64,000 nt of DNA from Spirosoma endbachense (GTDB taxonomy: Bacteria > Bacteroidota > Bacteroidia > Cytophagales > Spirosomataceae), in the NCBI RefSeq assembly GCF_010233585.1, contig NZ_CP045997.1, positions 9,820,808 to 9,884,807 of the forward strand, given 5' to 3'. Position 1 is the stretch's first letter; every line of letters starts with the position of its first letter. Positions 21,234 to 45,778 of this stretch are shown here, in pieces. Under the pieces are notes generated by a model. That model saw nothing but the letters and a program-made list of their open reading frames with translations. It did not search any database and was not told the DNA's origin. Position numbers and translations under genes: made by a program.

Positions 21234-21280
21234 CTACTAAAAAGCCCTGCCGGAACAGTTCCGGCAGGGCTTTTTAGTAG
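21234..21280. terminator. Bidirectional terminator between convergent genes
   Basis: Perfect 23 bp arms starting CTACTAAAAAGCCCTGCCGG around a single central base. The stem ends in A-run/T-run on both strands. It lies between the convergent phosphoesterase and hydroxylase genes. Confidence 0.93.
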
Positions 21281-26648: not shown

Positions 26649-26672
26649 TATATTTGCGCAACTTTGTTGCAA
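26649..26672 (+). promoter_or_regulatory. GCAAC-N3-GTTGC operator with promoter, site 1
   Basis: A -7 box TATATTTG (26649-26656) is followed at once by GCGCAACTTTGTTGCAA (26656-26672), so the operator lies over the transcription start. The core GCAAC-TTT-GTTGC is shared with sites near 33.82, 36.59 and 44.79 kb. It is upstream of the MerC-like gene. Confidence 0.75.
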
Positions 26673-26711
26673 AAAAGCCGGTTAAGAGAAGTACGATTGA
26701 CCGAAGCATCG

Positions 26712-26719
26712 TACTTTTG
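26712..26719 (+). promoter_or_regulatory. Second -7 box for the MerC-like gene
   Basis: TACTTTTG lies 9 bp before the ATG at 26729, giving a possible near-leaderless transcript in addition to the upstream operator promoter. Confidence 0.55.
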
Positions 26720-26728
26720 CGTTTGCCC

Positions 26729-27109
26729 ATGAAAACTGATATTCTCTCTCGCAAAGCTGACTACATTGGCATTACCGGGTCGGTATTGTGTATTATTCAC
26801 TGCCTGATTACGCCTGTTTTATTGATGTCCACTGCTTTGATTCAGGATGAACACCTTCGCTTCGGTTACCTGAGCCTGGACTACCTCTTTATCGGCGTCA
26901 ACATTGTGGCCGTTTATTCGGCAACACGCCATTATGCGCTGCCAGCCGTCAAAAAATCACTCTGGGGATTTCTAAGTCTGTTCACCATCGCCATTCTGCT
27001 GGAAGACGTAAGCCCAATCTTTGAATACATAGGCTATGCAGCGTCGGCGGGTCTGGTGATTACCCATCTGATCAACATTCGCCAGCATCGTTTACAGCAC
27101 GTTCATTAA
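26729..27109 (+). CDS. MerC-domain membrane protein
   Basis: Small membrane protein of the MerC family, about 126 residues from the ATG at 26729 (a frame from 26654 would run through the operator and second promoter). Signature: GITGSVLCIIHCLITPVLL with the CxxHC pair, then about three more hydrophobic helices and a His-rich tail (RQHRLQHVH). MerC was named for mercury uptake, but many Bacteroidota copies occur near zinc and iron genes. Here the upstream operator is shared with a COG0523 GTPase and a His-rich lipoprotein, pointing to zinc or another transition metal rather than mercury. Confidence 0.85.
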   Translation: MKTDILSRKADYIGITGSVLCIIHCLITPVLLMSTALIQDEHLRFGYLSLDYLFIGVNIVAVYSATRHYALPAVKKSLWGFLSLFTIAILLEDVSPIFEYIGYAASAGLVITHLINIRQHRLQHVH

Positions 27110-27219: not shown

Positions 27220-28329
27220 CTAATTCGGCCCGAATGCCCGATTGGTAATAAACGTGTTATCGGTCAGCGTTTTCAGGAAGCTGATCACCTGTTGCTGTTC
27301 GGTGGCAGTTAATGCAATGCCGAGTTGACCATTCGCTTTCAGAGCCGGATCGAGCGTAGGGCTATCTTTCACTCCCGTAGAATAGTGGTTGAGCACCTGC
27401 TCCAGCGTTGTGAAGCGCCCATCGTGCATGTAAGGAAATGTACGCTCAACATTGCGCAGGCTGGGCACTTTAAATTTTAGCCGATCGGCTTCATTGAGCG
27501 TAATCGTGTAACGCCCCTGGTCGTTGATGCTACTTACAGGAAGCCCGTTGTTGCGATAGCTATAATCCGTGAATAAATCGGTGGCATGACAGGTCGCACA
27601 CTTCTGCTTGAATAGCGTCAGTCCCGCCAGTTCATCACTTGTCAGGTCGCCCCCGGATTCTTTCCTGACGTATTTATCATAGCGCGAATCAGCGGAAACG
27701 AGCGTCAATACAAACTGCGAAATCGCTTTCAGGAACCGAGCCGTCGTAACGGTGTCTGAACCAAAGGCGGACTTAAACATTTGCGGATATTTGGGACTTT
27801 GCTGCACCCGCGCCAGGACATTGGCAAACTTCATGTCCATTTCAACCGGGTTGGTGAGCGGGGCAATAAACAGTGTGTTCAGATCCGTTATCCCACCATC
27901 CCAGAAAAACTCGCGCCCCCATGCCGCATTTTGCAGACTGGGCACATTACGCGTTCCAAACTTATTGTCTATTCCATGGCTCAGCGCATGGTCGGAGTGG
28001 GCAAAACCAGCAAACTGCTGGTGACAGAATCCACAACTAACCGTACTATCGCGGGACAGCTGGGTGTCATAAAACAACGACTTTCCTAAAGCTACACCCT
28101 GAACCGTTAATGGGTTCTGACTAAGTTCGTAAACAGGAGTGGGAAAATTGGCCGGTTGCCGAAACGGAACAGGGGTAGTATGAAATTGCACACCACCCGT
28201 ATCTGTCGTATCGGGAGCGGGGTCATCACTACCGCCCGATTTTGTTTGACAGGCCACAGCCAGCCCAAACAAAAAGAGACTGATGACCAGCCCTAACTTT
28301 TTAGCGCTATGGAAAGTACATTGGGTCAT
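27220..28329 (-). CDS. MbnH/MauG-type di-heme enzyme (cytochrome c peroxidase family)
   Basis: Periplasmic lipoprotein (lipobox Cys27, FGLAVAC) of 369 residues with two c-type heme motifs: CGFCH (C99, C102, H103) and CATCH (C244, C247, H248). The AGFAHSDHALSHGI and LRNVERTFPYMHDGRFTTLEQVL segments are typical of the di-heme peroxidase/MauG fold. Its start overlaps the stop of an MbnP-type gene by 4 bp. In characterised MbnP/MbnH pairs, MbnH oxidises a tryptophan in MbnP so that MbnP binds copper. A plain hydrogen-peroxide-detoxifying peroxidase is the alternative, but the MbnP neighbour favours MbnH. Confidence 0.88.
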   Translation of the reverse strand: MTQCTFHSAKKLGLVISLFLFGLAVACQTKSGGSDDPAPDTTDTGGVQFHTTPVPFRQPANFPTPVYELSQNPLTVQGVALGKSLFYDTQLSRDSTVSCGFCHQQFAGFAHSDHALSHGIDNKFGTRNVPSLQNAAWGREFFWDGGITDLNTLFIAPLTNPVEMDMKFANVLARVQQSPKYPQMFKSAFGSDTVTTARFLKAISQFVLTLVSADSRYDKYVRKESGGDLTSDELAGLTLFKQKCATCHATDLFTDYSYRNNGLPVSSINDQGRYTITLNEADRLKFKVPSLRNVERTFPYMHDGRFTTLEQVLNHYSTGVKDSPTLDPALKANGQLGIALTATEQQQVISFLKTLTDNTFITNRAFGPN

Positions 28330-29141
28330 TGGTTCGCCTGAGTTCGGTCGTAACTAAACATGGCTGCGTAATTAGTGGCAATATTTGTCGAATAGGGATC
28401 GAACATAACCGATGAATTCTGAGCAATACTCAGTTTTGTTGGGCCATTAAAGACTTTCAATACATCGGCCTTTAGTTGAACTTTAGGTTTGACGGAAGGG
28501 TCAACTTTTACTACATCGCCGTTAAACGATAATAAAATCGTACGTAGGTTATTAATCGTCTTTTTCCCGTTGAATCCTCCACCAAAACCACCGATATGGT
28601 AAAAGAAGGTATTATTCTGAGCGGCCGGTGCCAGTGGTGACGTCCCTTCCAGTTTCATAAAAATATACCCTGAGTTCCATTCCCAGTACATGCCATCGTT
28701 TAGAGCTGGATCGAGCACGCCTGTTCGCAGGCTAATGTCGGCCAGACTACGCAGGCTGTCTACACCCACCACAAACGTCATTCCCGTATAGTTTCCGGAT
28801 GGTATACTTGCCAGCGTCAGCGAGAGTGAAGCGGGCTTCTCTTCTTCAATCAGAAAATAGCTGGCCCCCTGCGGTAGCGTATATGTACTGCCATCGTCTT
28901 TTTTGAGCTGAATGTTGCTCACAAAATAATTGAATTTCGTCACGACAAACGACTCTCCGACTGAATTCTGGTAGGTGGTGGCGTTTAGCTTAAGATCCTG
29001 AGTGCCTGCAATGTTGTCGAATGTTAGCGATAATGAGCCAATCGGTTCAGGAGGAACGTAGGGATTGGTTGTGTCGCAGGAAACGACGGCAACTCCAATA
29101 GCTCCCATCAACACCAGCGATAAAAAGAAATAGTTTTTCAT
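28326..29141 (-). CDS. MbnP-family copper-associated lipoprotein
   Basis: Lipoprotein (lipobox ending VVSC, Cys22) of 271 residues. Family signature: FNYFVSNIQLKKDDGSTY near residue 70 and, above all, GMYWEWNSGYIFMKLEG (about 150-166) with Trp153 and Trp155, the region where MbnP carries the tryptophan modified by MbnH; YHIGGFGGG follows at about 181. These features and the 4 bp overlap with the di-heme gene are the basis for the call. Likely role: periplasmic copper binding, delivering to or receiving from the TonB receptor of the same cluster. Confidence 0.88.
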   Translation of the reverse strand: MKNYFFLSLVLMGAIGVAVVSCDTTNPYVPPEPIGSLSLTFDNIAGTQDLKLNATTYQNSVGESFVVTKFNYFVSNIQLKKDDGSTYTLPQGASYFLIEEEKPASLSLTLASIPSGNYTGMTFVVGVDSLRSLADISLRTGVLDPALNDGMYWEWNSGYIFMKLEGTSPLAPAAQNNTFFYHIGGFGGGFNGKKTINNLRTILLSFNGDVVKVDPSVKPKVQLKADVLKVFNGPTKLSIAQNSSVMFDPYSTNIATNYAAMFSYDRTQANQ

Positions 29142-29182
29142 GGCTCAAAGTTTCGAAGTTACTTTACGTTCAATACGTTGAT

Positions 29183-29387
29183 TTACCTTAACCCGTTGCG
29201 GCTATAAAGGATAATTAATGTCACGATACTACCGCTAACGATCATCAGGAACAGCCAGATAAGCGCATTCGCTGCACTAAATGGGTGTTGTGTACATTCG
29301 TTCAGAAAGCCTGCCAGGGTGCCCAGGCAGATGCCCAGTCATACAAACGAAAATAAACTGAATAATGGGCGGTAATCGACGAAGCAT
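29183..29387 (-). pseudogene. Possible frameshifted small membrane protein
   Basis: An ATG at 29387 opens MLRRLPPIIQFIFVCM and then changes frame. In the next frame, LGICLGTLAGFLNECTQHPF, then ANALIWLFLMIVSGSIVTLI, continues to a stop at 29183. Joined, this would be a protein of about 65 residues with two membrane helices, in the gap of an otherwise compact operon. It could also be a chance frame; no family is recognised. Confidence 0.35.
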
Positions 29388-29519
29388 AGCCGTTGGGACG
29401 TATGAATAACGAACTGGTTACTATTCTATTTTTAGAGTTCGCCAGTTCGTTCAGGAAGAAATTGTCCGGCATTTACTTCGACTATCGGATGCCTGTACGC
29501 CAACCTGCCTGAACCAATT

Positions 29520-30749
29520 TTATAGCGTATCCACTAACCGGCTAACTATCACCGTATTCTGCGAATTTGTTGTCTGTTCATAAGCAATGAGCAGGCCTTT
29601 TTTCGTGGCCAGCACAACCGGATACTTCGCATCGGCATTTTCGGTTGTCAGGTACGTTGTTGGACTCACGTCCTTTCCCAATACCGTTCGCATTCCGATC
29701 CGCTGAACAAATGAACTCATTTCGCCAGAGCCGTCTTTAGAAACCGATTCATCCCAGAGCCAAACAATTCGCCCATTCGCCGTTGCTACCTGCGGATGTT
29801 TCGCCCGGCTCGTCAATACGCTTGATACCAGTTTATCGGAACCTAACCGGGCCAATCGAAGCCCTGGCGCGTCTTCTTTTCCCGAAAACCACGTCATCAA
29901 TAGATCATTGCCCAATTCAGCTACTACCGGCCCCGCGTGTGGACAGGCATTCACCTGCCAATGATCGGCAAATACAAGCTGCGGTTTGCTGAACGTTTTG
30001 CCGCCGTCAGTCGAAACAGCCGTACTGATGTCGCGGGAAGCAACCTCACCCGATTTTGTGGCAGGGATCAGGTCGCGGTACGTCAGATGAATGTTTTTCT
30101 TGGCGTCGACAAATACGTTCGTCCGGCAACACTGGCAGGCATTATTCTCCACCAGCACAGCCGGGCCGAACCCTTTGCCTTTGGCAGTCTGAGCAAATAC
30201 GACCGGACGGCCTTCCAGACCGGGCAATTTCTCATCAAGCCATACCACGCCGATTTCACCGTTAGACAAACGGGTTATATCAGCAAACGAATGACTTTTC
30301 CCCGGCGTTGCATCCCGATGAACTGGCTTCGGTTCTGTCCAGGTTTTGCCCTGATCAGCTGACATGGTGAACAGTAAATCACCAGCAAAGCGAGAAGCTG
30401 ACGTAGGGCGCGGCACTTCAAAAATGGCGACGAGCGTACCATCTGCTTTGACCGCAATTTTAGGCATCCCTTCCGCATGAGCAGCGATGTTTGTCGGCGT
30501 TTTCACGCGAATTTTCGGCCCAAATACAGGGGCCATTCCGTCGGTACGATCATTCGCCGAAATAGCAAAGTAGAACGCGGCTCCTTTTTCCCCGTCTTTT
30601 TCAACCCAGCTCAGGAGTGGATTTCCGACCGCATCGGTCGTCAGACGAGGGGTTGCTCCAACGAATTGTGGATTAGAAACGGTTGTTTCGGTAGCGGGCG
30701 TAAAGGCCATCAACCAGCCAAAAAGAGCGATTAGAAATGAGTATGTCAT
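29520..30749 (-). CDS. Secreted BNR/sialidase-like propeller with CxCC motif
   Basis: A 409-residue exported protein (signal peptide MTYSFLIALFGWLMAFTPATE) with sialidase-type propeller repeats: SADQGKTWTEP and STDGGKTFSKP are Asp-box motifs. It lacks an evident sialidase arginine triad. An unusual Cys cluster CQCC (205-208) and a further CPH (269-271) lie on loops of neighbouring blades and could bind metal. The gene is 48 bp downstream of the TonB receptor and upstream of MbnP/MbnH, so a copper-handling role is more likely than glycan cleavage. This is inference from position. Confidence 0.8.
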   Translation of the reverse strand: MTYSFLIALFGWLMAFTPATETTVSNPQFVGATPRLTTDAVGNPLLSWVEKDGEKGAAFYFAISANDRTDGMAPVFGPKIRVKTPTNIAAHAEGMPKIAVKADGTLVAIFEVPRPTSASRFAGDLLFTMSADQGKTWTEPKPVHRDATPGKSHSFADITRLSNGEIGVVWLDEKLPGLEGRPVVFAQTAKGKGFGPAVLVENNACQCCRTNVFVDAKKNIHLTYRDLIPATKSGEVASRDISTAVSTDGGKTFSKPQLVFADHWQVNACPHAGPVVAELGNDLLMTWFSGKEDAPGLRLARLGSDKLVSSVLTSRAKHPQVATANGRIVWLWDESVSKDGSGEMSSFVQRIGMRTVLGKDVSPTTYLTTENADAKYPVVLATKKGLLIAYEQTTNSQNTVIVSRLVDTL

Positions 30750-30797
30750 GTTGTTTATGATTTATGTAGAGCCAGCACGAGCGAACCGGCCGGATTG

Positions 30798-33155
30798 TCA
30801 TTTACCGGAAAAACTATATTGAATGCCGAACACAAATGTGCGCGGAGCTGCCGGGGTATAGGTCGTTCGATCCGTGGCATTATTGCCCCGTGTTGCATTC
30901 GTGGCGAATAGCGCATCGGTTACGTTGAGTATGTTCGAATACAGCTCAATACCCTTCCATTGATACCCGATTCGTACATTGGCAAAGTCATAGCCACCAT
31001 AGCTAACCGTATTGGTCTGATTTTGAAACCAGCTCGACACATGCTGCCATTCTACCGACGTCCGGAAATTTTTCAGCCAGGCCGGATAGTAACTGATCTC
31101 CGTATTCCAGAGCGTGCGTGGAGCCGAGGGCATATCTTTACCATCGACGTTCTGCACCGCATCGGATGCCCGCTGACTAAGTGTAAATTCCACAAACCGA
31201 TGCACAACGTGCGTCCCTCCGAAACGGAAGAATGCCTGTTTTGAAGGCCGGTACGTGACGCCCAGTTCAATACCCCGATGTACTGTCCGGCCCGCTGACT
31301 GGTAATCGGTTGAGTTGTCGGGCTGGCGAATGTTGAGCAGTTCGTTCCTGCCATTCATCTGGTAGAGCGCTCCATCTACGTACACCTTATTGTTGAACAA
31401 TGAAGCCCAGCCACCGATTTCCGTATTGTCGAATGTGGCTGGCTGAAGATTGTAGTAGAACAAATCGCCGGAAGCCGTTGGTAGAGTTCGCTTTATGAAA
31501 ATCGACGTAAGGGCCGGGGGCGAAAAACCCTTCGAATAATTCGCATACACACCCATACTGGATGGCCCCTTACCATTCCCCAGATCATACGTGACCCCGA
31601 TTTTTGGCGTAGCCTGACTAAATGATTTATCGCCTGAACTCTTATCCAGCGCATTGGTATAGTCGAAGGCCATCCGGTCGTAGCGAAGCCCCGCCGATAC
31701 CCGCAGTTTAGGTAATGGCTCGAAATCATATTGCAGATAAGCCGCTATGTTGTGAATATCGGCCTGATAATTAGCCAGCTGGATATCAGGCCTTTCTTTT
31801 AACAGCGTGTATTTCGCAACTGATTTTTTATCGGATCGTAATTCAGCCGCCATATCGGTTTGATAGGCATAATACGCATTGGGCGACAGATCGAGTGTGG
31901 CCCCGACCAGTAGCTTGCTGTTCAGGAAATTTAGCTTTTGCGTATGCTGGGCAATGATCCCAAAACTCTTGAAATCGTTGCTGTTAATCTGCCCCATAGC
32001 GGTTGAAGAACCCGTTGTCCATCGAATCGAATAGGCCGGATTTTGCCCCACGCTATTATTCCGTACAAATGCCGTTATGAATGATTGTGATCCATCTTTC
32101 CAGTCCTGTTCGAGTGTCAGGCGACTACGCAGCGAGAACGTTTTCCGATAGGTAAAATCAGTTGTGCTAACGTACTGACGGGCAAAAAACGCGGTACTAT
32201 CGACGCTGCCACTAGTCTGCGAATTGTAGTTATTGTAGGAGAGCGTCCCCGTCAGGCGCGTACGGGGTGTAAACGCATAGTCGAGCCGGGCAAAATACGA
32301 GGACTTGTCGTAGTCAGAGCTGGCCAGCCACGAATCACGCTGCCGGGACACAAACCCTCCCAGATAAATACCCAATTTGCCCCGTTGGACTCCCGTGCCA
32401 AATTGAAGCCGCTGATATCCCCACTGGTCGAACTGGATGCCCACGCGGGCCGTTGGCACGGCAGTTGGGCGTTGGGTGATGAAGTTTACGGCTCCCCCCA
32501 CGGCCTCTGGCCCATAAATTGAGGATACCGGTCCCTTAACTACCTCAATGGAGCTAACCGTAAATTGATTCAATTCGAGCAAGGCGTTGTGATTGAACAC
32601 GCCCATTGGCCGAATCGGAACGCCATCTTCCAGGTACAGGAAATACGCATTGGTGGTCATCGGCTGCCGAATCGCCATCATATGCTGCTCATTGTTCAGG
32701 TTAACCATCAGTACGCCCGGTGTCTTGTTGATCACCTCATAAATACTGGTTGGCTTTGTCTCTTCGATTAGTCTGGGCGACAGCTTCGAAATAGCAATCG
32801 GTGTTTCGGTACGCAACGCGGCTTCCCGATTGCCCGTTACCACGACCGTCTGCAAGTCTTCAACGGCTGGTTCAAGAGCAAGGTGTACTGACTGATTGGG
32901 CGTTAATGTCACTCGTTGTCGGCGATACCCTACAGCCGACACAATGACCTCGTTAACAGTGGGAGTCAGTGAGAACCGTCCGTTCGCATCGGTAACGACG
33001 CCAGATTTCCCATCGGGAGCAATCAGGGTTACACCGGGTATGGGTTCTTTGGTTTGAGCGTCAAAAATCAACCCCTGACAGGTGGATTGAGCAGTTGCCA
33101 TGCAGGCAGCTGCAACCCATAAGCCAATGGCCATGAGCAATTTATAGGTTATCAC
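30798..33155 (-). CDS. TonB-dependent receptor of the MbnP/MbnH cluster
   Basis: Outer-membrane receptor, 785 residues: signal peptide to about 22; carboxypeptidase-like beta-sandwich about 25-95 (GLIFDAQTKEPIPGVTLIAP); plug about 110-225 (VVVTGNREAALRTETPIAI, then IEVVKGPVSSIYGPEAVGGA); and a 22-strand-type barrel ending in aromatic FVFGIQYSFSGK. The plug has a Met/His-bearing stretch (NEQHMMAIRQPM) that could contact metal. With MbnP, MbnH and the CxCC propeller downstream, the most likely cargo is copper or a copper complex. Iron siderophores are the alternative. Confidence 0.88.
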   Translation of the reverse strand: MITYKLLMAIGLWVAAACMATAQSTCQGLIFDAQTKEPIPGVTLIAPDGKSGVVTDANGRFSLTPTVNEVIVSAVGYRRQRVTLTPNQSVHLALEPAVEDLQTVVVTGNREAALRTETPIAISKLSPRLIEETKPTSIYEVINKTPGVLMVNLNNEQHMMAIRQPMTTNAYFLYLEDGVPIRPMGVFNHNALLELNQFTVSSIEVVKGPVSSIYGPEAVGGAVNFITQRPTAVPTARVGIQFDQWGYQRLQFGTGVQRGKLGIYLGGFVSRQRDSWLASSDYDKSSYFARLDYAFTPRTRLTGTLSYNNYNSQTSGSVDSTAFFARQYVSTTDFTYRKTFSLRSRLTLEQDWKDGSQSFITAFVRNNSVGQNPAYSIRWTTGSSTAMGQINSNDFKSFGIIAQHTQKLNFLNSKLLVGATLDLSPNAYYAYQTDMAAELRSDKKSVAKYTLLKERPDIQLANYQADIHNIAAYLQYDFEPLPKLRVSAGLRYDRMAFDYTNALDKSSGDKSFSQATPKIGVTYDLGNGKGPSSMGVYANYSKGFSPPALTSIFIKRTLPTASGDLFYYNLQPATFDNTEIGGWASLFNNKVYVDGALYQMNGRNELLNIRQPDNSTDYQSAGRTVHRGIELGVTYRPSKQAFFRFGGTHVVHRFVEFTLSQRASDAVQNVDGKDMPSAPRTLWNTEISYYPAWLKNFRTSVEWQHVSSWFQNQTNTVSYGGYDFANVRIGYQWKGIELYSNILNVTDALFATNATRGNNATDRTTYTPAAPRTFVFGIQYSFSGK

Positions 33156-33165
33156 GAGAAGTTAG

Positions 33166-33328
33166 TTTAAGTCAAGCAAATAAGTAAGGCTACGGGCATG
33201 AAGCCCTGAAATGCCGCTTAGTAAGGTTCGCCTTAGAAACGGCCAGAGTCCACGGACGAGGATAGCTCCTGCGCCTGGACGATAGCAATTACTCCAGATA
33301 CGTAGATAGATAAACGGCTTGACTTAAA
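33166..33328. repeat. Widely spaced 12 bp inverted repeat around an operon gap
   Basis: TTTAAGTCAAGC (33166-33177) and GCTTGACTTAAA (33317-33328) are perfect inverse copies 139 bp apart. The right copy includes the stop codon of the small gene at 33324. A second small inverted pair (AAGGCTACGGGC / GTAAGGTTCGCCTTAG region) lies inside. Function unknown. Confidence 0.5.
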
Positions 33329-33701
33329 ACCGCGGAGGACGAAAGAACCCCATCAACGGGGCCAGTGCGATTGAAAAAGTATACTCGAAGAAATTCATTG
33401 GCAGGGACTGCGTCCAGAACGGGCTAAACGCAAACGGTTGACTAGCCTCAAAGAACAACTGCAAAACGGGGGTAGTTTGAACCCGTTCGGTGGTTTCCTT
33501 ATCCTGTTTGTCCTGTTGGGCTTTCAATTGCTTAGCCAGATAGCATTGGCCATCGCAGTGAAGTTGAGGCTTATCCCGGTTTTCGCACAAAACACGGGCG
33601 ATGTAGTCCCTGTTGGCATGATAATACGCAATGGTTCCCCACTGGCTGACCGTTGGCAGCAGCGTTGCAATGAGGAGAACAAAGACCAGCACGTTTTTCA
33701 T
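33324..33701 (-). CDS. Small membrane protein upstream of the TonB receptor, ends in Pro-Pro motif
   Basis: About 125 residues from the ATG at 33701 (a TTG at 33710 lies inside the -7 box). One N-terminal helix (MKNVLVFVLLIATLLPTVSQ) is followed by a Cys motif, VLCENRDKPQLHCDGQCYLAKQL. I recall this as a conserved pattern in small Bacteroidota proteins placed near metal receptors. The C terminus is FFRPPRF. It is the first gene of the receptor-MbnP/MbnH unit. Two other small proteins in the window, at 41063 and 57845, share the position and the C-terminal Pro-Pro. Function unknown; a metal-binding accessory of the envelope is likely. Confidence 0.75.
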   Translation of the reverse strand: MKNVLVFVLLIATLLPTVSQWGTIAYYHANRDYIARVLCENRDKPQLHCDGQCYLAKQLKAQQDKQDKETTERVQTTPVLQLFFEASQPFAFSPFWTQSLPMNFFEYTFSIALAPLMGFFRPPRF

Positions 33702-33707
33702 GGCGAA

Positions 33708-33715
33708 CAAAGATA
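33708..33715 (-). promoter_or_regulatory. Promoter -7 box of the MbnP/MbnH operon
   Basis: The minus strand reads TATCTTTG. It ends 6 bp before the ATG at 33701, so transcription should start at or within a base or two of the start codon (leaderless). Confidence 0.7.
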
Positions 33716-33817: not shown

Positions 33818-33849
33818 ACGCAACATTGTTGCATAAATTTATATCTTTG
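33818..33849 (+). promoter_or_regulatory. GCAAC-N3-GTTGC operator and promoter, site 2
   Basis: Operator ACGCAACATTGTTGCAT (33818-33834) is followed by -7 box TATCTTTG (33842-33849) and the ATG of the His-rich lipoprotein at 33869. A bound repressor would cover the space between the -33 and -7 elements. Confidence 0.8.
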
Positions 33850-33868
33850 CCTAAAAAACTACCCACTT

Positions 33869-34321
33869 ATGCGCAACTTTATTCTTTTCTGCCTGGCATT
33901 ATCTTTAGCTGCCTGCTCCGGGAAAACTGACGCCGACCAGTCCATACTGAATGAAGCTGCAACATTTCATAATGAAGCGATCAACGTACAGGAACAGGTA
34001 GAACCTCTGATTGATGAGATTGACTCGGTACGTACTGTGCTTATTAAAAAAATGACCCCTGAGGCAAAAATCACGGCCCAATCGCTCGATAGTTTGAAAA
34101 CGGCATTTGAGCAGTGGGAGGAAAATCTGGTAGAAGTGCCCGGCATGAAGCATGAGCATCATCACGAGCATGATAAAGGCCACCACCATCATCATAACAG
34201 CGACACCAAAGATCTTCCTGCCGACCAGATGCGCGATCTACAACAGGCATTTCTGACGAACATCAAACAAATTCAGCAACAAACCCAACAGGCTATGGAA
34301 CAAGCCAAAAGCATACAGTAA
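33869..34321 (+). CDS. His-rich lipoprotein, probably metal-binding
   Basis: A 150-residue lipoprotein (lipobox ALSLAAC, Cys16). The mature chain is a helical coiled-coil-like region (30-90), then the His cluster KHEHHHEHDKGHHHHH (94-109), then a Gln-rich amphipathic helix (120-150). The His cluster is typical of periplasmic zinc or nickel binders. It lies under the site 2 operator and converges with a ZIP transporter gene, stop to stop with a 3 bp gap. A zinc-buffer or delivery role is likely. The family is not recognised, so the call rests on the motif and context. Confidence 0.82.
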   Translation: MRNFILFCLALSLAACSGKTDADQSILNEAATFHNEAINVQEQVEPLIDEIDSVRTVLIKKMTPEAKITAQSLDSLKTAFEQWEENLVEVPGMKHEHHHEHDKGHHHHHNSDTKDLPADQMRDLQQAFLTNIKQIQQQTQQAMEQAKSIQ

Positions 34322-34324
34322 CCG

Positions 34325-35080
34325 TCATTCGAGTGAGGCTAGCCACAGCATCAGCCCAATGCCCATCAGCACGAACAGGCTCTGAAACCACGACATACCG
34401 GATTGATTGGAACGATGTAATTCAGGTATTAAATCGCTGGAAGCCACATAGATGAATCCACCTGCTGCTACCGGCATTAGATAAATCAGATACGCTTCGA
34501 ACCATAGTCCGGCAAGAAGTACGGTACTGATTCCCAAGAGGCATGTTAGAGCCGATAGCAAATTATAAACTACTGCCCGACGGATGCTAAAACCACCATA
34601 GAGCAACGTACCGACATCGCCCACTTCCTGCGGCAATTCGTGCAATAGCAACCCCGCGGTTGTGGCCCAGCCAGCCGTTGGGCTAACTAAAAAACTACCT
34701 GCAATGAGCGTTCCATCAAGGAAGTTATGCAGGGAATCCCCCAGCAAATTCATGGAAATTAACGGCTTTACTACAGCGCCTGTTGTCAGACGTTGGTCAT
34801 GACGCCACCGGATCAGCTTTTCAAGATTAAAAAAGAGAAAGATGCCTGCCAGCACTTCCAGCAAAACAAGCTGAACGTTACCAATTCGCTCGAGTGATTC
34901 GGGTAGCAGGTGCAGAAACGCGTCCCCCAACAACACCCCCGTCGATAAACTGATGAACAGGGGCAACCATTGACGCAACACAACGGACGGAATCAGGTAA
35001 GCGAATCCCCCAACCAGGGCAACACCACAAACCGCCAAACCTGCCAGACTGCTTTGCCCCCAGATTTCCCATCGAATCAA
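34325..35080 (-). CDS. ZIP-family metal transporter
   Basis: Inner-membrane importer of zinc or related divalent ions, 251 residues with about eight helices. The two ZIP metal-site motifs are present: HNFLDG in helix IV (H118, N119, D122) and HELPQEVGD in helix V (H147, E148, E152). There is no ATG in a suitable place. The TTG at 35080 gives a complete first helix, so this is the likely start but is not certain. Convergent with the His-rich lipoprotein and 200 bp from the COG0523 GTPase, the local cluster is about zinc. Confidence 0.88.
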   Translation of the reverse strand: MIRWEIWGQSSLAGLAVCGVALVGGFAYLIPSVVLRQWLPLFISLSTGVLLGDAFLHLLPESLERIGNVQLVLLEVLAGIFLFFNLEKLIRWRHDQRLTTGAVVKPLISMNLLGDSLHNFLDGTLIAGSFLVSPTAGWATTAGLLLHELPQEVGDVGTLLYGGFSIRRAVVYNLLSALTCLLGISTVLLAGLWFEAYLIYLMPVAAGGFIYVASSDLIPELHRSNQSGMSWFQSLFVLMGIGLMLWLASLE

Positions 35081-35280
35081 GTGGGCTGTCAGTATTATAA
35101 TCCGTACGATTTATTTTGGCCGGAGGGGAGTGCTTGGCAATCACGAAAGTACCCAATCGCACGAATGCCCAACCATCAAGTGAAGCCGTTAGACACTCAC
35201 CCTCCCGCAACAAAAGATTTATTGATAAAGAATGTATCCGTATTGCCACCTGCTATCCATTTTCCAGCAGCCATCTTTCA

Positions 35281-36552
35281 TTATTCACTACCCCTTGGAA
35301 AGGGATCGCCAAAAACGCCACCGATTTCCATATGCCTCATTTCCAATTCAGTACATAGACAATCCTGCAACTCTTTTGTGATTTTTTCCGGGTGCAAATC
35401 CTGCCCAATGATGACCAGTTCGTTCTGCCGATCGCCGAAGCGTTTGTGCCAGCCAGATTCTATAGATTGCCGATTTTCCAGAAATGACCCGTACTGGATA
35501 CGTTGAGAAAAAGGCATCGACACCCACCACACACCGGCCGATTCGGCTCGCAGGCTGCCACCAGCCTGACTAAAATTCAGCGCATCATCCGGTCGGGAAG
35601 CCAACCAGAACAATCCTTTACTTCGGAGAATACCTGCCGGGAAATCCGCACTCAGATAGTGCCAGAAGCGCATCGGATGAAATGGTCGCCGGTCGCGGAA
35701 AACAAACGATGAGATCCCGTATTCGTCGGTTTCAGGGGTATGACCTTTGCCGCTTTTCTGATTCTGTATCTCCTGAATCCAGCCTGCTGATTGTGATACT
35801 TCGTCGAAATCAAATCGGCCCGTGTTCAGAATTTCGGTCGGATCGACCTTGCTGAACTGGCTTTCAATAAGTCTGGCTTTAGGGTTCAGTTTTTGCAGAA
35901 TAGCGTTCAGCTCACCTACCTGATAGCGGCTCAACAGATCTGTTTTGTTCAGGATAACGACATCGGCAAACTCGATCTGGTCGGTCAGCAGATTGACAAT
36001 CGTTCGGGTATCTGCCGTGTCTTCATTCAGTTTACGATCATATACAGTATCGATACTGCCGAAATCGCGGGAAAAATTGAACGCATCGACCACCGTTACC
36101 AGAGTGTCAAGGCGGGCAAAGCGCGACAGATCGACCCTATTGTCTTCGTCTATCGAACTATCAGATTGAAAGGTGAAGGTCTGTGCTACAGGCAATGGCT
36201 CCGAAATGCCCGACGACTCAATCAGCAGATAATCGAATCGGCCCTCCGTCGCCAATTTTTCGACCTCAATCATTAAATCCTCGCGCAGCGTGCAGCAGAT
36301 ACAGCCATTCGACATTTCGACCAGTTTTTCTTCTGTGCGCGAGAGCATACCTTCTTGCCTGACGAGCGCTGCATCGACGTTAACTTCGCTCATGTCATTG
36401 ACAATCACGGCTACTTTTAAACCCTGCCGGTTATGAAGTACATGATTGAGGAGTGTTGTTTTTCCGGCTCCCAGAAAACCACTCAATACCGTAACCGGTA
36501 AACGATTATCGACGGGCTTGCCCGCCGTTGCAACAGTAGTTTGACTTGCCAT
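35281..36552 (-). CDS. COG0523 (CobW/ZigA-type) metal-chaperone GTPase
   Basis: G3E GTPase that delivers metal, usually zinc under starvation, to client enzymes. Features: Walker [10 protein letters not shown] (25-33), the metal-binding CxCC motif CICC (84-87) in [18 protein letters not shown] at about 204 and a C-terminal CobW domain (about 305-410, [17 protein letters not shown]). Its 423 residues fit the long Bacteroidota members. The promoter carries a 33 bp palindrome with the GCAAC-N3-GTTGC core. In other bacteria many COG0523 genes are under Zur, which supports a zinc reading; cobalamin or nitrile-hydratase roles are less likely here. Confidence 0.92.
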
Positions 36553-36556
36553 GTGG

Positions 36557-36605
36557 CAAATCTAAAGACTATTTTTCTTTTTGCAACAATGTTGCAAAAA
36601 GAAAA
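36557..36605 (-). promoter_or_regulatory. GCAAC-N3-GTTGC operator and promoter, site 3
   Basis: A perfect palindrome of 16 bp arms around one base (36573-36605), with core TTGCAACAATGTTGCAA. On the minus strand it precedes the -7 box TAGATTTG (36564-36557), which ends 4 bp before the GTPase ATG, again suggesting a leaderless mRNA. Confidence 0.85.
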
Positions 36606-43664: not shown

Positions 43665-44600
43665 ATGGCTCACGATCTCCACGACTCTGCCCATAGTCAC
43701 GCAGGCCATAACCACGGCCCCACGGTTCTGACATCCGTCAACCGGGCGTTGATTATCGGGGCGGTGCTGAATTCGGTTTATGTAGTGGTTGAATTCGCTA
43801 TGGGATTCTACTACAATTCACTGGCACTGATTGCTGATGCAGGACATAATCTGAGTGATGTGGCCAGTTTGCTCCTTTCGCTGTTGGCCTTTCGGCTCGC
43901 ACGTGTTCGGCAAACACCGAGTTTCACCTATGGCTATCGGAAAAGCACAGTATTGGCTTCATTGACCAACGCTGTCATCCTGCTGGTTACGATCGGGGCT
44001 ATTTTGTGGGAAAGTATCCAGCGTTTCAAGCACCCGGAGCCGGTAGCCGGTGGTCCTGTTGCCTGGGTCGCCGGATTTGGTATCCTCATCAATGCATCCT
44101 CGGCGCTGTTGTTCTTCCGCGATAAAGACCACGACCTGAACGTAAAAGGCGCTTATCTGCACCTGGCGGCCGACGCGTTGGTGTCGCTTGGCGTAGTCAT
44201 AGCTGGTGTTATCATCAGTTATACCGGCTGGGTCTGGCTCGATCCGGCTATCGGGCTGGCCGTCGCTGCCGTCATTCTGGGTTCGACCTGGGGGCTGCTC
44301 AATGATAGTTTGCGGCTCTCGCTCGATGGCGTTCCGGCCGATATCGACCTACCCGCTGTGCTGGCCGATCTGCGGACGGTTGCCGGTGTGCGCGATGTAC
44401 ATCACGTCCATGTATGGGCTATGAGTACGACCGAAAATGCGCTTACAGCTCACCTTGTCTTACAACCCGGCCTGTCCGACAGTGCCGAAACGGCTCTCAA
44501 AGCTGATGTTCGTCATCGGTTATTACACCGTAATATTGGCCATGCCACGCTCGAAACAGAGGTAACCACAGAGGCTGACTGTGGAGCCGAAGATTGCTGA
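43665..44600 (+). CDS. CDF-family cation diffusion facilitator (CzcD/ZitB-like)
   Basis: Proton-coupled transporter of the cation diffusion family, 311 residues with six helices and a C-terminal cytosolic domain. The metal site is HNLSD in helix II and HLAAD in helix V (two Asp-His pairs). The N terminus is a His-rich tail (DLHDSAHSHAGHNHG). The C-terminal domain reads VRDVHHVHVWAMSTTENALTAH, a CDF hallmark. The family exports Zn, Co or Cd. It is encoded directly after a TonB receptor, an unusual pairing of an outer-membrane importer with a cytoplasmic exporter. Confidence 0.92.
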   Translation: MAHDLHDSAHSHAGHNHGPTVLTSVNRALIIGAVLNSVYVVVEFAMGFYYNSLALIADAGHNLSDVASLLLSLLAFRLARVRQTPSFTYGYRKSTVLASLTNAVILLVTIGAILWESIQRFKHPEPVAGGPVAWVAGFGILINASSALLFFRDKDHDLNVKGAYLHLAADALVSLGVVIAGVIISYTGWVWLDPAIGLAVAAVILGSTWGLLNDSLRLSLDGVPADIDLPAVLADLRTVAGVRDVHHVHVWAMSTTENALTAHLVLQPGLSDSAETALKADVRHRLLHRNIGHATLETEVTTEADCGAEDC

Positions 44601-44764
44601 GATAAATGACTTGATGTACTGGAAAATTCATCCCCTTTTCTGGTGCTGACAAGCCATTTTAGCGACCCGAACACTTCTGGCGATTACCACTAATCAGCCA
44701 TAAAGCTGAAAATAAGCTCGTTAAGTCGCTTTAGAGATTATAGCAATCCCATGATCATCGATTT

Positions 44765-44820
44765 CAGCGGATTCACTAATGCAACATTGTTGCATTAGTG
44801 AATCCGCTGCTGTATTTTTG
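44765..44820 (+). promoter_or_regulatory. 45 bp palindromic operator and promoter, site 4
   Basis: A perfect palindrome with 22 bp arms around one central base (44765-44809). The core is ATGCAACATTGTTGCAT; outer arm parts are CAGCGGATTCACTA and its inverse. The -7 box TATTTTTG (44813-44820) follows, and the ATG at 44840 is 19 bp on. A frame from 44798 (GTG) would start inside the operator, so I reject that start. Confidence 0.88.
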
Positions 44821-44839
44821 TCAAAACAATACAGGAATC

Positions 44840-45778
44840 ATGGGTACAACAGATACATTCGACGTTGTCGTTGTTGGTGGGAGTTATGCTGGTTTGAGCG
44901 CGGCTTTACTCCTCGGACGATCGTTAAGGAAAGTGCTTGTCATCGATAGCGGCCAGCCCTGCAATCGGCAGACGCCCCACTCCCATAGCTATCTGACCCG
45001 CGACGGTGAGACGCCCGCCCAGATTGCAGCCATCGCCAAAGAGCAACTGCTGCAATATCCAACAGTTTCATTCGTAAATGATCTGGCGACAGTAGCGCGC
45101 CCTGAGTCGAGTGGATTTATAGTGGAAACCGCAGCCGGGCATCAGTTCCGATCGCGCAAATTGCTATTGGCAACCGGTATTCACGATATCATGCCAGCAA
45201 TCGACGGGTTTGCCGAATGTTGGGGACGATCCATTTTGCACTGCCCCTACTGTCACGGCTATGAAGTTCATGGTCAACGACTCGGTATCATCGCCAACGG
45301 TGATATTGCCAACAAAATGGTGCGACTCATTCAACACTGGAGTCCTGATTTAACCTTGTTTACAAACGGCCCGGCTACCCTAACGGCTGAGCAATGGCAA
45401 ACGACACAACAGCTTGGCATACCGGTTATTGAAACCGAAATTGTAGCCGTCGAGCATCAACAAGGTCAGCTAAAAAACCTTCGCTTTCCAGACGGATCGA
45501 TCCACGAACTGGACGCCATTTTCAGCCCCGTTCCGTTTCGGCAACATAGTGAACTGGCTGCCCAGCTGGGGTGTGATTTCGACGAATCTGGCCTGATTAA
45601 GATCGGTGAATTCGGCCAAACCAACATACCAGGTTTGTATGCGGCTGGAGACAACAGCACTCCCTTTCGGCAGGTGTCGATCGCTGCCACGAACGGAGGT
45701 AAAGCAGGAGTCTGGATGAACCATGAGTTGATCGATGAAGATCTAGCGCACCGGCTGCATACCAGCGTTTTAAATTAG
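44840..45778 (+). CDS. Thioredoxin-reductase-like FAD/NAD(P) oxidoreductase
   Basis: A 312-residue flavoprotein of the thioredoxin-reductase superfamily. FAD motif GGSYAG (13-18), a dithiol motif CPYC (135-138) followed by HGYE, and a second FAD contact GLYAAGDNSTPFRQVSIAA near the C terminus. The NADPH-binding domain between them is shorter and less clear than in standard TrxB. It most resembles Bacteroidota NAD(P)/FAD-dependent oxidoreductases of unknown substrate. Its promoter carries the strongest copy of the GCAAC-N3-GTTGC operator, linking it to the MerC, GTPase and lipoprotein genes. It could reduce a dithiol partner under metal stress. Confidence 0.85.
   Translation: MGTTDTFDVVVVGGSYAGLSAALLLGRSLRKVLVIDSGQPCNRQTPHSHSYLTRDGETPAQIAAIAKEQLLQYPTVSFVNDLATVARPESSGFIVETAAGHQFRSRKLLLATGIHDIMPAIDGFAECWGRSILHCPYCHGYEVHGQRLGIIANGDIANKMVRLIQHWSPDLTLFTNGPATLTAEQWQTTQQLGIPVIETEIVAVEHQQGQLKNLRFPDGSIHELDAIFSPVPFRQHSELAAQLGCDFDESGLIKIGEFGQTNIPGLYAAGDNSTPFRQVSIAATNGGKAGVWMNHELIDEDLAHRLHTSVLN

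Follow-up and report, generated by a model that had tools for sequence, protein, structure and literature searches.

A palindromic box, very likely a Zur-type zinc operator, precedes candidate zinc-starvation genes and a dithiol-oxidase-like flavoprotein gene in Spirosoma endbachense

Why does one palindrome recur at the promoters of a MerC-domain membrane protein, a His-rich lipoprotein, a COG0523 GTPase and a FAD flavoprotein in a single stretch of the Spirosoma endbachense chromosome? The stretch analysed here, called the window below, comprises 64,000 nucleotides (contig NZ_CP045997.1, positions 9,820,808 to 9,884,807), and a first-pass annotation had proposed that a palindrome shared by these four promoters marks a zinc regulon. 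We conclude that the palindrome, TGCAACA-N-TGTTGCA, is very likely the operator through which a Zur-type zinc sensor, here probably a Fur-family protein that we call L014, controls zinc-starvation genes. Two points had escaped the first-pass annotation: the kinship of the flavoprotein with dithiol oxidases, and the presence in the genome of a regulator that can be named.

Within the window, the core GCAACNNNGTTGC occurs exactly at 26658, 33820, 36583 and 44781 and nowhere else. All four occurrences are promoter sites, as had been proposed, and 100 shuffles of the window gave a mean of 0.11 matches and a maximum of two. The 10.33-Mb genome holds the core at 11 places, four in the window and seven in the other 10.26 Mb; from these seven, 0.044 would be expected in 64 kb (Poisson P ~1.5e-7 for the window's four, a post hoc figure). 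Genome-wide, the bare core was not enriched (11 matches versus 19 for the reversed pattern, our control throughout). Therefore, we used the longer box, a 7-1-7 palindrome with the 15-bp form TGCAACANTGTTGCA, which was found five times with at most one mismatch versus none for the reversed control, and 27 versus 13 times with at most two. The five closest sites belong to the ZigA-like GTPase, the flavoprotein, the lipoprotein, a TonB receptor (504175) and an S49-peptidase gene (6057757), whereas the MerC site in the window has two mismatches. A whole-genome scan that returns metal genes was the check set by the first-pass annotation; of these five genes, that of the S49 peptidase is not a metal gene. 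The 504175 receptor scores 124.6 bits on the ZnuD model (cut-off 950), and two heme-type receptor models score higher. The boxes, their promoter elements and the adjoining genes are as follows.

26649-26656, plus strand: -7 element TATATTTG, directly before the MerC box (promoter scan).
26657-26671, plus strand: Zur-like box CGCAACTTTGTTGCA, two mismatches, MerC promoter (pattern scan).
26712-26719, plus strand: second MerC -7 element, TACTTTTG (promoter scan).
26729-27109, plus strand: MerC-domain membrane protein, candidate metal importer (PF03203, 61.3 bits, above the cut-off of 27.6; the score is from the longer frame 26654-27109, and the start is taken as ATG rather than an upstream TTG).
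33819-33833, plus strand: Zur-like box CGCAACATTGTTGCA, one mismatch, between two divergent transcription units (pattern scan).
33842-33849, plus strand: -7 element TATCTTTG of the lipoprotein gene (promoter scan).
33869-34321, plus strand: His-rich lipoprotein (HEHHHEHDKGHHHHH), candidate periplasmic metal binder (from its sequence).
36582-36596, minus strand: Zur-like box TGCAACATTGTTGCA, ZigA promoter, within a 16+1+16 perfect palindrome at 36573-36605 (pattern scan).
36557-36564, minus strand: -7 element TAGATTTG of ZigA, with TTG -33 elements inside the box (promoter scan).
35281-36552, minus strand: COG0523/ZigA-like zinc-chaperone GTPase (PF02492, PF07683; ZigA model NF038288, 543.6 bits, cut-off 600).
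34325-35080, minus strand: ZIP-family transporter behind ZigA, after a 200-bp gap (PF02535, 136 bits).
44780-44794, plus strand: Zur-like box TGCAACATTGTTGCA, perfect, within a 22+1+22 perfect palindrome at 44765-44809 (pattern scan).
44813-44820, plus strand: -7 element TATTTTTG of the flavoprotein gene, with TTG -33 elements inside the box (promoter scan).
44840-45778, plus strand: FAD flavoprotein, DepH/HlmI/GliT-like dithiol oxidase by homology (best PDB match DepH, 181.9 bits; CPYC at residues 135-138).
43665-44600, plus strand: CDF-family (ZitB-like) exporter upstream of the flavoprotein box (TIGR01297, 254 bits).

Pfam and NCBIfam scans, together with the sequences themselves, bore out the gene identities of the first-pass annotation; we say ZigA-like because the GTPase misses the NCBIfam ZigA cut-off. 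The exporter has no box of its own, and scanning the window at up to three mismatches gave no further site. In two relatives (G010, L190 11501; G007, L191 9675) the ZigA box has on its other side a divergently oriented gene resembling a CDF exporter, an arrangement in which Zur might act on export too. Boxes also precede MerC in L184 and similar lipoprotein genes in L119, L184, L186 and L188, and in L016-L019 a perfect box likewise lies 43-44 bp before the start of the ZigA match.

Where the boxes lie relative to the promoters suits repression. A TAnnTTTG -7 element had been reported beside or over each site, which holds with corrected registers. At ZigA and the flavoprotein it begins 25-26 bp past the centre of the box, which accordingly covers the -33 element, and at the lipoprotein it stands at +16. 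MerC has two such elements, at -15 and at +48; with the first in use, the box would lie over the start site. We then took 38 of 71 box-facing promoters, hand-picked as facing likely targets. Of these, 26 contain TAnnTTTG, seven of them at -13 relative to the box centre and 13 at +24 to +27; in the opposite direction it was present in 13 of the 38, twice at -13 and otherwise mostly scattered. In the first register it is the start site that lies under the box, in the second the -33 element. Paired boxes were spaced by 37-40 bp in 10 of 21 pairs and by 61-62 bp in eight, with no pairs among the controls. As 37-40 bp is the sum of both registers, such pairs may bracket one promoter. Pairs at 61-62 bp stand before ZigA or between MerC and a 128-aa ORF (L117, L189, L192-L197).

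Conservation among relatives extends the case beyond one genome. Across 241 genomes of the order, 608 boxes were found at no more than one mismatch, versus 58 matches to the reversed pattern. Genomes with an L014-type match (171) averaged 3.30 boxes and those lacking one (70) averaged 0.63; after removal of 37 genomes under ~2.5 Mb the means were 3.30 (170) and 0.97 (34; Mann-Whitney P 2e-8, kinship ignored). In a set of 295 genomes drawn from the class, 195 had at least one box, a count without a reversed-control total. Box loci were sampled at one per genome and search (56, from 30 + 26) and set against 30 loci of the reversed pattern; sites no more than 150 bp from a called start were counted as lying outside the gene. 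By this rule 45 of 56 box sites were intergenic, versus nine of 30 controls. Among the 71 box-facing genes (25 of 49 families listed) were Plug (12), Pyr_redox_2 (10), cobW (7), MerC (6), FUR (4) and ZIP (1) proteins, the remainder having other or no families. None of the 10 control genes fell in these six families, and one encoded an HlyD/heavy-metal-binding protein.

The same companions recur at individual loci. Nineteen of 24 ZigA loci (our own included) carry a box at up to two mismatches within ~500 bp, and the reversed control differs by at least four mismatches at all 24. The boxless five are L033, L026, L027, L036 and L037: L033 is the ZigA gene behind Zur in G051, the genomes of L026 and L027 have ZigA downstream of a boxed MerC, and in that of L036 neither an L014-type match nor a box was found. 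In Chitinophaga dinghuensis (L110), a single perfect box separates MerC, ZigA and a TonB receptor on one strand from SCO1 and Zur on the other. G051 has a one-mismatch box before Zur, followed on the same strand by genes for ZigA, phosphoribosyl-AMP cyclohydrolase (PRA-CH), GTP cyclohydrolase I (FolE) and a COG0523 protein. Elsewhere the box lies between a Zur-like gene and ZIP (G052, C363:4498-4887), between MerC and a FUR gene (G114, G180), or between a Pyr_redox_2 flavoprotein and a FUR gene (G023). Uptake, COG0523 and enzyme-paralogue genes, the company by which we recognise a zinc regulon, therefore all stand behind boxes, with the zinc independence of PRA-CH and FolE putative. The relatives thus tie the box to Zur-like, ZIP, MerC and COG0523 genes and support the earlier zinc-regulon reading, in which zinc would be the signal. 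In one relative whose Zur-like protein is 99% identical (G001), ZigA, ZIP and the lipoprotein are absent beside the 128-aa ORF (L200 400-1692) and the flavoprotein box is retained; no ZigA was found in that genome.

Which protein reads the box? Three FUR-domain proteins are encoded in the S. endbachense genome, of which L012 and L013 score best on Fur models and L014 on the Zur model. L014 is a His-rich Fur-family protein of 138 aa, encoded 2.4 Mb from the window (G000:C1:7401604-7402017), with a FUR domain (PF01475, 41.4 bits, cut-off 23.1). Its best match in the PDB is the mycobacterial FurB/Zur 2o03 (33.3 bits), followed at 30.8 by 3mwm, a putative metal uptake regulator that we take to be Streptomyces Zur; Fur entries score ~22 or less. 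Its YALC, HHHHDHVHFKCEAC and CLDC motifs align with 2o03 and presumably supply metal ligands. A box of the 7-1-7 form could also belong to a Fur paralogue, since such palindromes have been described for Fur as well, and no box precedes the L014 gene itself. We nevertheless regard L012 or L013 as a highly unlikely reader of the box, because the box-adjacent Fur-family proteins (that of G052 left out) group with L014 and apart from both paralogues at 100/100 support, and because box numbers track the presence of L014-type proteins. L014 is thus probably the regulator of the window's boxes. Autoregulation was considered and rejected, as none of 52 Zur loci is boxed in the 500 bp upstream, and the link to L014 consequently rests on co-occurrence, on its being the sole non-Fur family member found here, and on the relatives. 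A second palindrome core, AGTATGCNNGCATACT, absent from the window, lies some kilobases away from zur in genomes of the Spirosoma type (L199 6589-6604; L099 12433, L100 15319, L101 13388, L105 13393, L106 12411 and L108 8894; symmetric arms are listed at four).

Several observations weigh against a Zur-type operator read by L014. L014 scores 33.2 bits on the NCBIfam Zur model PRK11639, below its cut-off of 167, and is called Zur-like for that reason, even though this is its top-scoring model (the next reaches 23.8). PerR 2fe3 scores 30.4 bits on L014, near the best Zur-type chains and above E. coli Zur (24.7). Within 500 bp upstream of the 52 Zur loci no box was found at up to three mismatches (the best sites have four to six), and none was found at up to two mismatches within 20 kb around L014. 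In the tree, three of the box-adjacent sensors are long-branched, leaving the internal order unsure. The comparison of box numbers with L014 presence, besides its neglect of kinship, includes 15 boxless genomes among the 171 Zur-positive ones and 11 of 70 Zur-negative ones with two or more boxes. The G051 cluster is interrupted by 944 bp and an opposite-strand ORF between Zur and ZigA. Finally, one of the five one-mismatch sites in the genome, that of the S49 peptidase, has no metal gene.

That site overlies the called start codon of the peptidase gene and belongs to a wider set of weak matches. In addition to the four sites in the window, to 504175 and to 5224200, which is inside a frame, the genome has 21 further sites at up to two mismatches, 17 of them called in reading frame and four intergenic. 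Three of the 17 lie at called starts (6057757; 3968100, an NlpC/P60 lipoprotein; 7367319, an FtsX/MacB permease), and among the in-frame weak sites we keep 7367319 alone as likely. It is a symmetric two-mismatch box, GATTTGCAATAACGTTGCAAATC, before the FtsX/MacB-like permease (L225 ~3020, G000:C1:7367319). Genome G004 has boxes before an ABC ATPase and before a permease whose N-terminus resembles this one. The intergenic four are L221, L227, L228 and L234, with L227 before a TonB receptor.

What the flavoprotein might do in such a regulon is suggested by its homologues. The PDB entries that score highest against it are DepH (182 bits), the uncharacterised oxidoreductase 3fbs (182), 4ntd (174), 4fk1 (169, labelled 'putative') and GliT (135). 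We take 4ntd to be HlmI; it is itself titled thioredoxin reductase, and other PDB entries with that title, apart from 4fk1, score 94 bits or less against the flavoprotein. CPYC, here in an HCPYCHG context, is present in all 30 best matches, its own included. Judged by homology, the protein is nearest to the DepH/HlmI/GliT dithiol oxidases and not to thioredoxin reductase. Matches at 1e-60 occur in 74 of the 241 genomes of the order, and our box survey covered the best 30 and the next 40 matches, with the last 22 left out. Among the best 30 (own included), 22 are boxed at up to two mismatches within 450 bp, versus none for the reversed pattern. The other eight include three that follow MerC and three that follow ZigA (judged by C-terminal sequence), and in all six stretches a box lies near the start of that neighbour. 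In total, 28 of the best 30 have a box leading either the gene itself or the adjoining MerC/ZigA gene, L314 and L327 having none. In the next 40 by score, the gene's own upstream region has a box in 22 and none in 18, and the reversed pattern was again absent.

Two of the window sites sit inside long perfect palindromes, and the first-pass annotation had delimited both exactly. Such symmetry, the folding of 44755-44840 as RNA (z -9.6) and the presence of other long perfect inverted repeats in the same genomes would all fit chance palindromes or parts of terminators, with no regulator involved. We find that explanation extremely improbable. The core is kept while the arms vary between orthologous sites: the flavoprotein boxes of S. 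endbachense (G000), G001 and G022 have different arms, each perfectly symmetric. Moreover, at 53 of 111 distinct box sites the perfect symmetry ends with the core, and neither the preferred -7 register nor the gene families behind the boxes is in line with chance. Arms of 14 or more perfect bases per side were found at 25 of the 111 sites and at none of 30 control sites; re-dealing the arms gave 1.2 expected and at most five in 300 shuffles. The longest reach 30+1+30 (61 bp), and further extended boxes lie at L188 12131, L202 9283, L185 12742, L119 3101 and L200 9025. Since other palindromes in these genomes behave alike, we do not ascribe arm extension to Zur, and the idea that it is a Zur-only feature was rejected. 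A role as mRNA hairpins was ruled out at ZigA and the flavoprotein, where the box is upstream of the -7 element and hence outside the transcript. Replication-time correction of imperfect palindromes, or reuse as terminators, is a possible origin. Other perfect inverted repeats in the window, at 323-375 (25+3+25) and 21234-21280 (23+1+23), are terminator-like.

The other side of the 33820 box raises the question of which metal is sensed. It faces a divergent unit.

33324-33710, minus strand: 128-aa membrane ORF, first in the divergent unit, without a family match (Pfam/NCBIfam).
30798-33155, minus strand: TonB-dependent receptor behind the 128-aa ORF (PF00593, PF07715).
28326-29141, minus strand: MbnP-family protein (PF20243, 182.7 bits).
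27220-28329, minus strand: MbnH/MauG-like di-haem enzyme (PF03150; TIGR04039, 224.9 bits, below the cut-off of 362.85).

From 27220 to 33155, the TonB receptor, a BNR-repeat protein, MbnP and the MbnH-like enzyme share one strand beside the box. Control of the 128-aa ORF by this box is less certain because its -7 element lies 111 bp away. MbnP and MbnH are families known for copper, and SCO1 stands directly before Zur in Chitinophaga, so a copper-responsive or general metal-responsive repressor might own the box and have the zinc genes as bystanders. We consider this quite unlikely, as the sensors adjoining boxes are Fur/Zur-like and as the ZigA-like GTPase, ZIP and the PRA-CH and FolE of G051 match the zinc-starvation set described in PMC6103462 and PMC2770081. 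Under a zinc-responsive operator, the MbnP/MbnH-like pair would possibly be a copper-type pair under zinc control.

How zinc would enter the cell also bears on the regulon. A ZnuABC importer was rejected as a candidate, because a search that was positive in 13 of 14 control genomes found no ABC-3 (ZnuB-type) permease here; this leaves MerC, ZIP and TonB receptors as candidates for zinc entry. We propose the following model from the sequence evidence. When zinc is sufficient, Zur would bind the box with zinc as its ligand, over the -33 element or the start site, and keep the promoters shut. On depletion it would leave the box, and the promoters would open. The cell would then make a TonB-linked uptake route, the MerC and ZIP membrane proteins and the His-rich lipoprotein, together with the ZigA-like GTPase, which would allocate scarce zinc, and the DepH/DnoP-like dithiol oxidase, which would probably disarm dithiol zinc chelators. 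With somewhat less than even confidence, we suggest that throughout the order, and probably in more Bacteroidota, Zur directly controls this oxidase together with MerC/ZIP-type proteins, that the response is hard-wired to defence against dithiol toxins that strip zinc, gliotoxin and holomycin among them, and that MerC serves zinc uptake and not mercury.

The proposed regulon resembles those of Zur in Proteobacteria, Firmicutes, Actinobacteria and Cyanobacteria in its Fur-family sensor, palindromic box, COG0523 GTPase, TonB receptors and zinc-independent enzyme paralogues, as these are described in PMC6103462 and PMC2770081; the first of these sources gives 7-1-7 as one published form of the Zur box. 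It differs in that MerC and the dithiol-oxidase relative are frequent members here, and in that G and C are part of the half site TGCAACA, in contrast to the Zur sites that PMC3087516 calls AT-rich palindromes in Actinobacteria, Bacilli and Proteobacteria. The main text of PMC2770081 does not mention Bacteroidetes, and our literature search, with RegPrecise and subscription papers outside it, found no Bacteroidota Zur box. The present box would thus offer the phylum a usable Zur box, and would give a bacterium without a detected ZnuB-type permease a candidate zinc regulon. The GTPase is like the ZigA/YciC COG0523 chaperones in that ZigA is its best NCBIfam model and a Zur-type box precedes it, and unlike them in falling below the 600-bit cut-off.

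The closest parallel for the flavoprotein is DnoP (PA4170) of Pseudomonas aeruginosa, a DepH-like flavoprotein with CXXC. According to PMC11317636, zinc starvation induces it through a signalling cascade stated there as not yet elucidated, and the enzyme protects the cell from gliotoxin and similar toxins. Reduced gliotoxin chelates zinc, according to PMC10500201. The simplest reading would be that the regulon produces a predicted defence enzyme exactly when zinc is withheld or stripped. It also suggests a role for proteins annotated merely as 'NAD(P)/FAD-dependent oxidoreductase' or 'MerC'. In contrast to DnoP, the Spirosoma gene or its neighbour has a Zur-type box directly upstream, with activity on gliotoxin or holomycin putative; the link from zinc starvation to the dithiol oxidase thus looks direct here, which would offer, from another phylum, a direct answer to the 2024 Pseudomonas question of how zinc starvation turns on such an enzyme.

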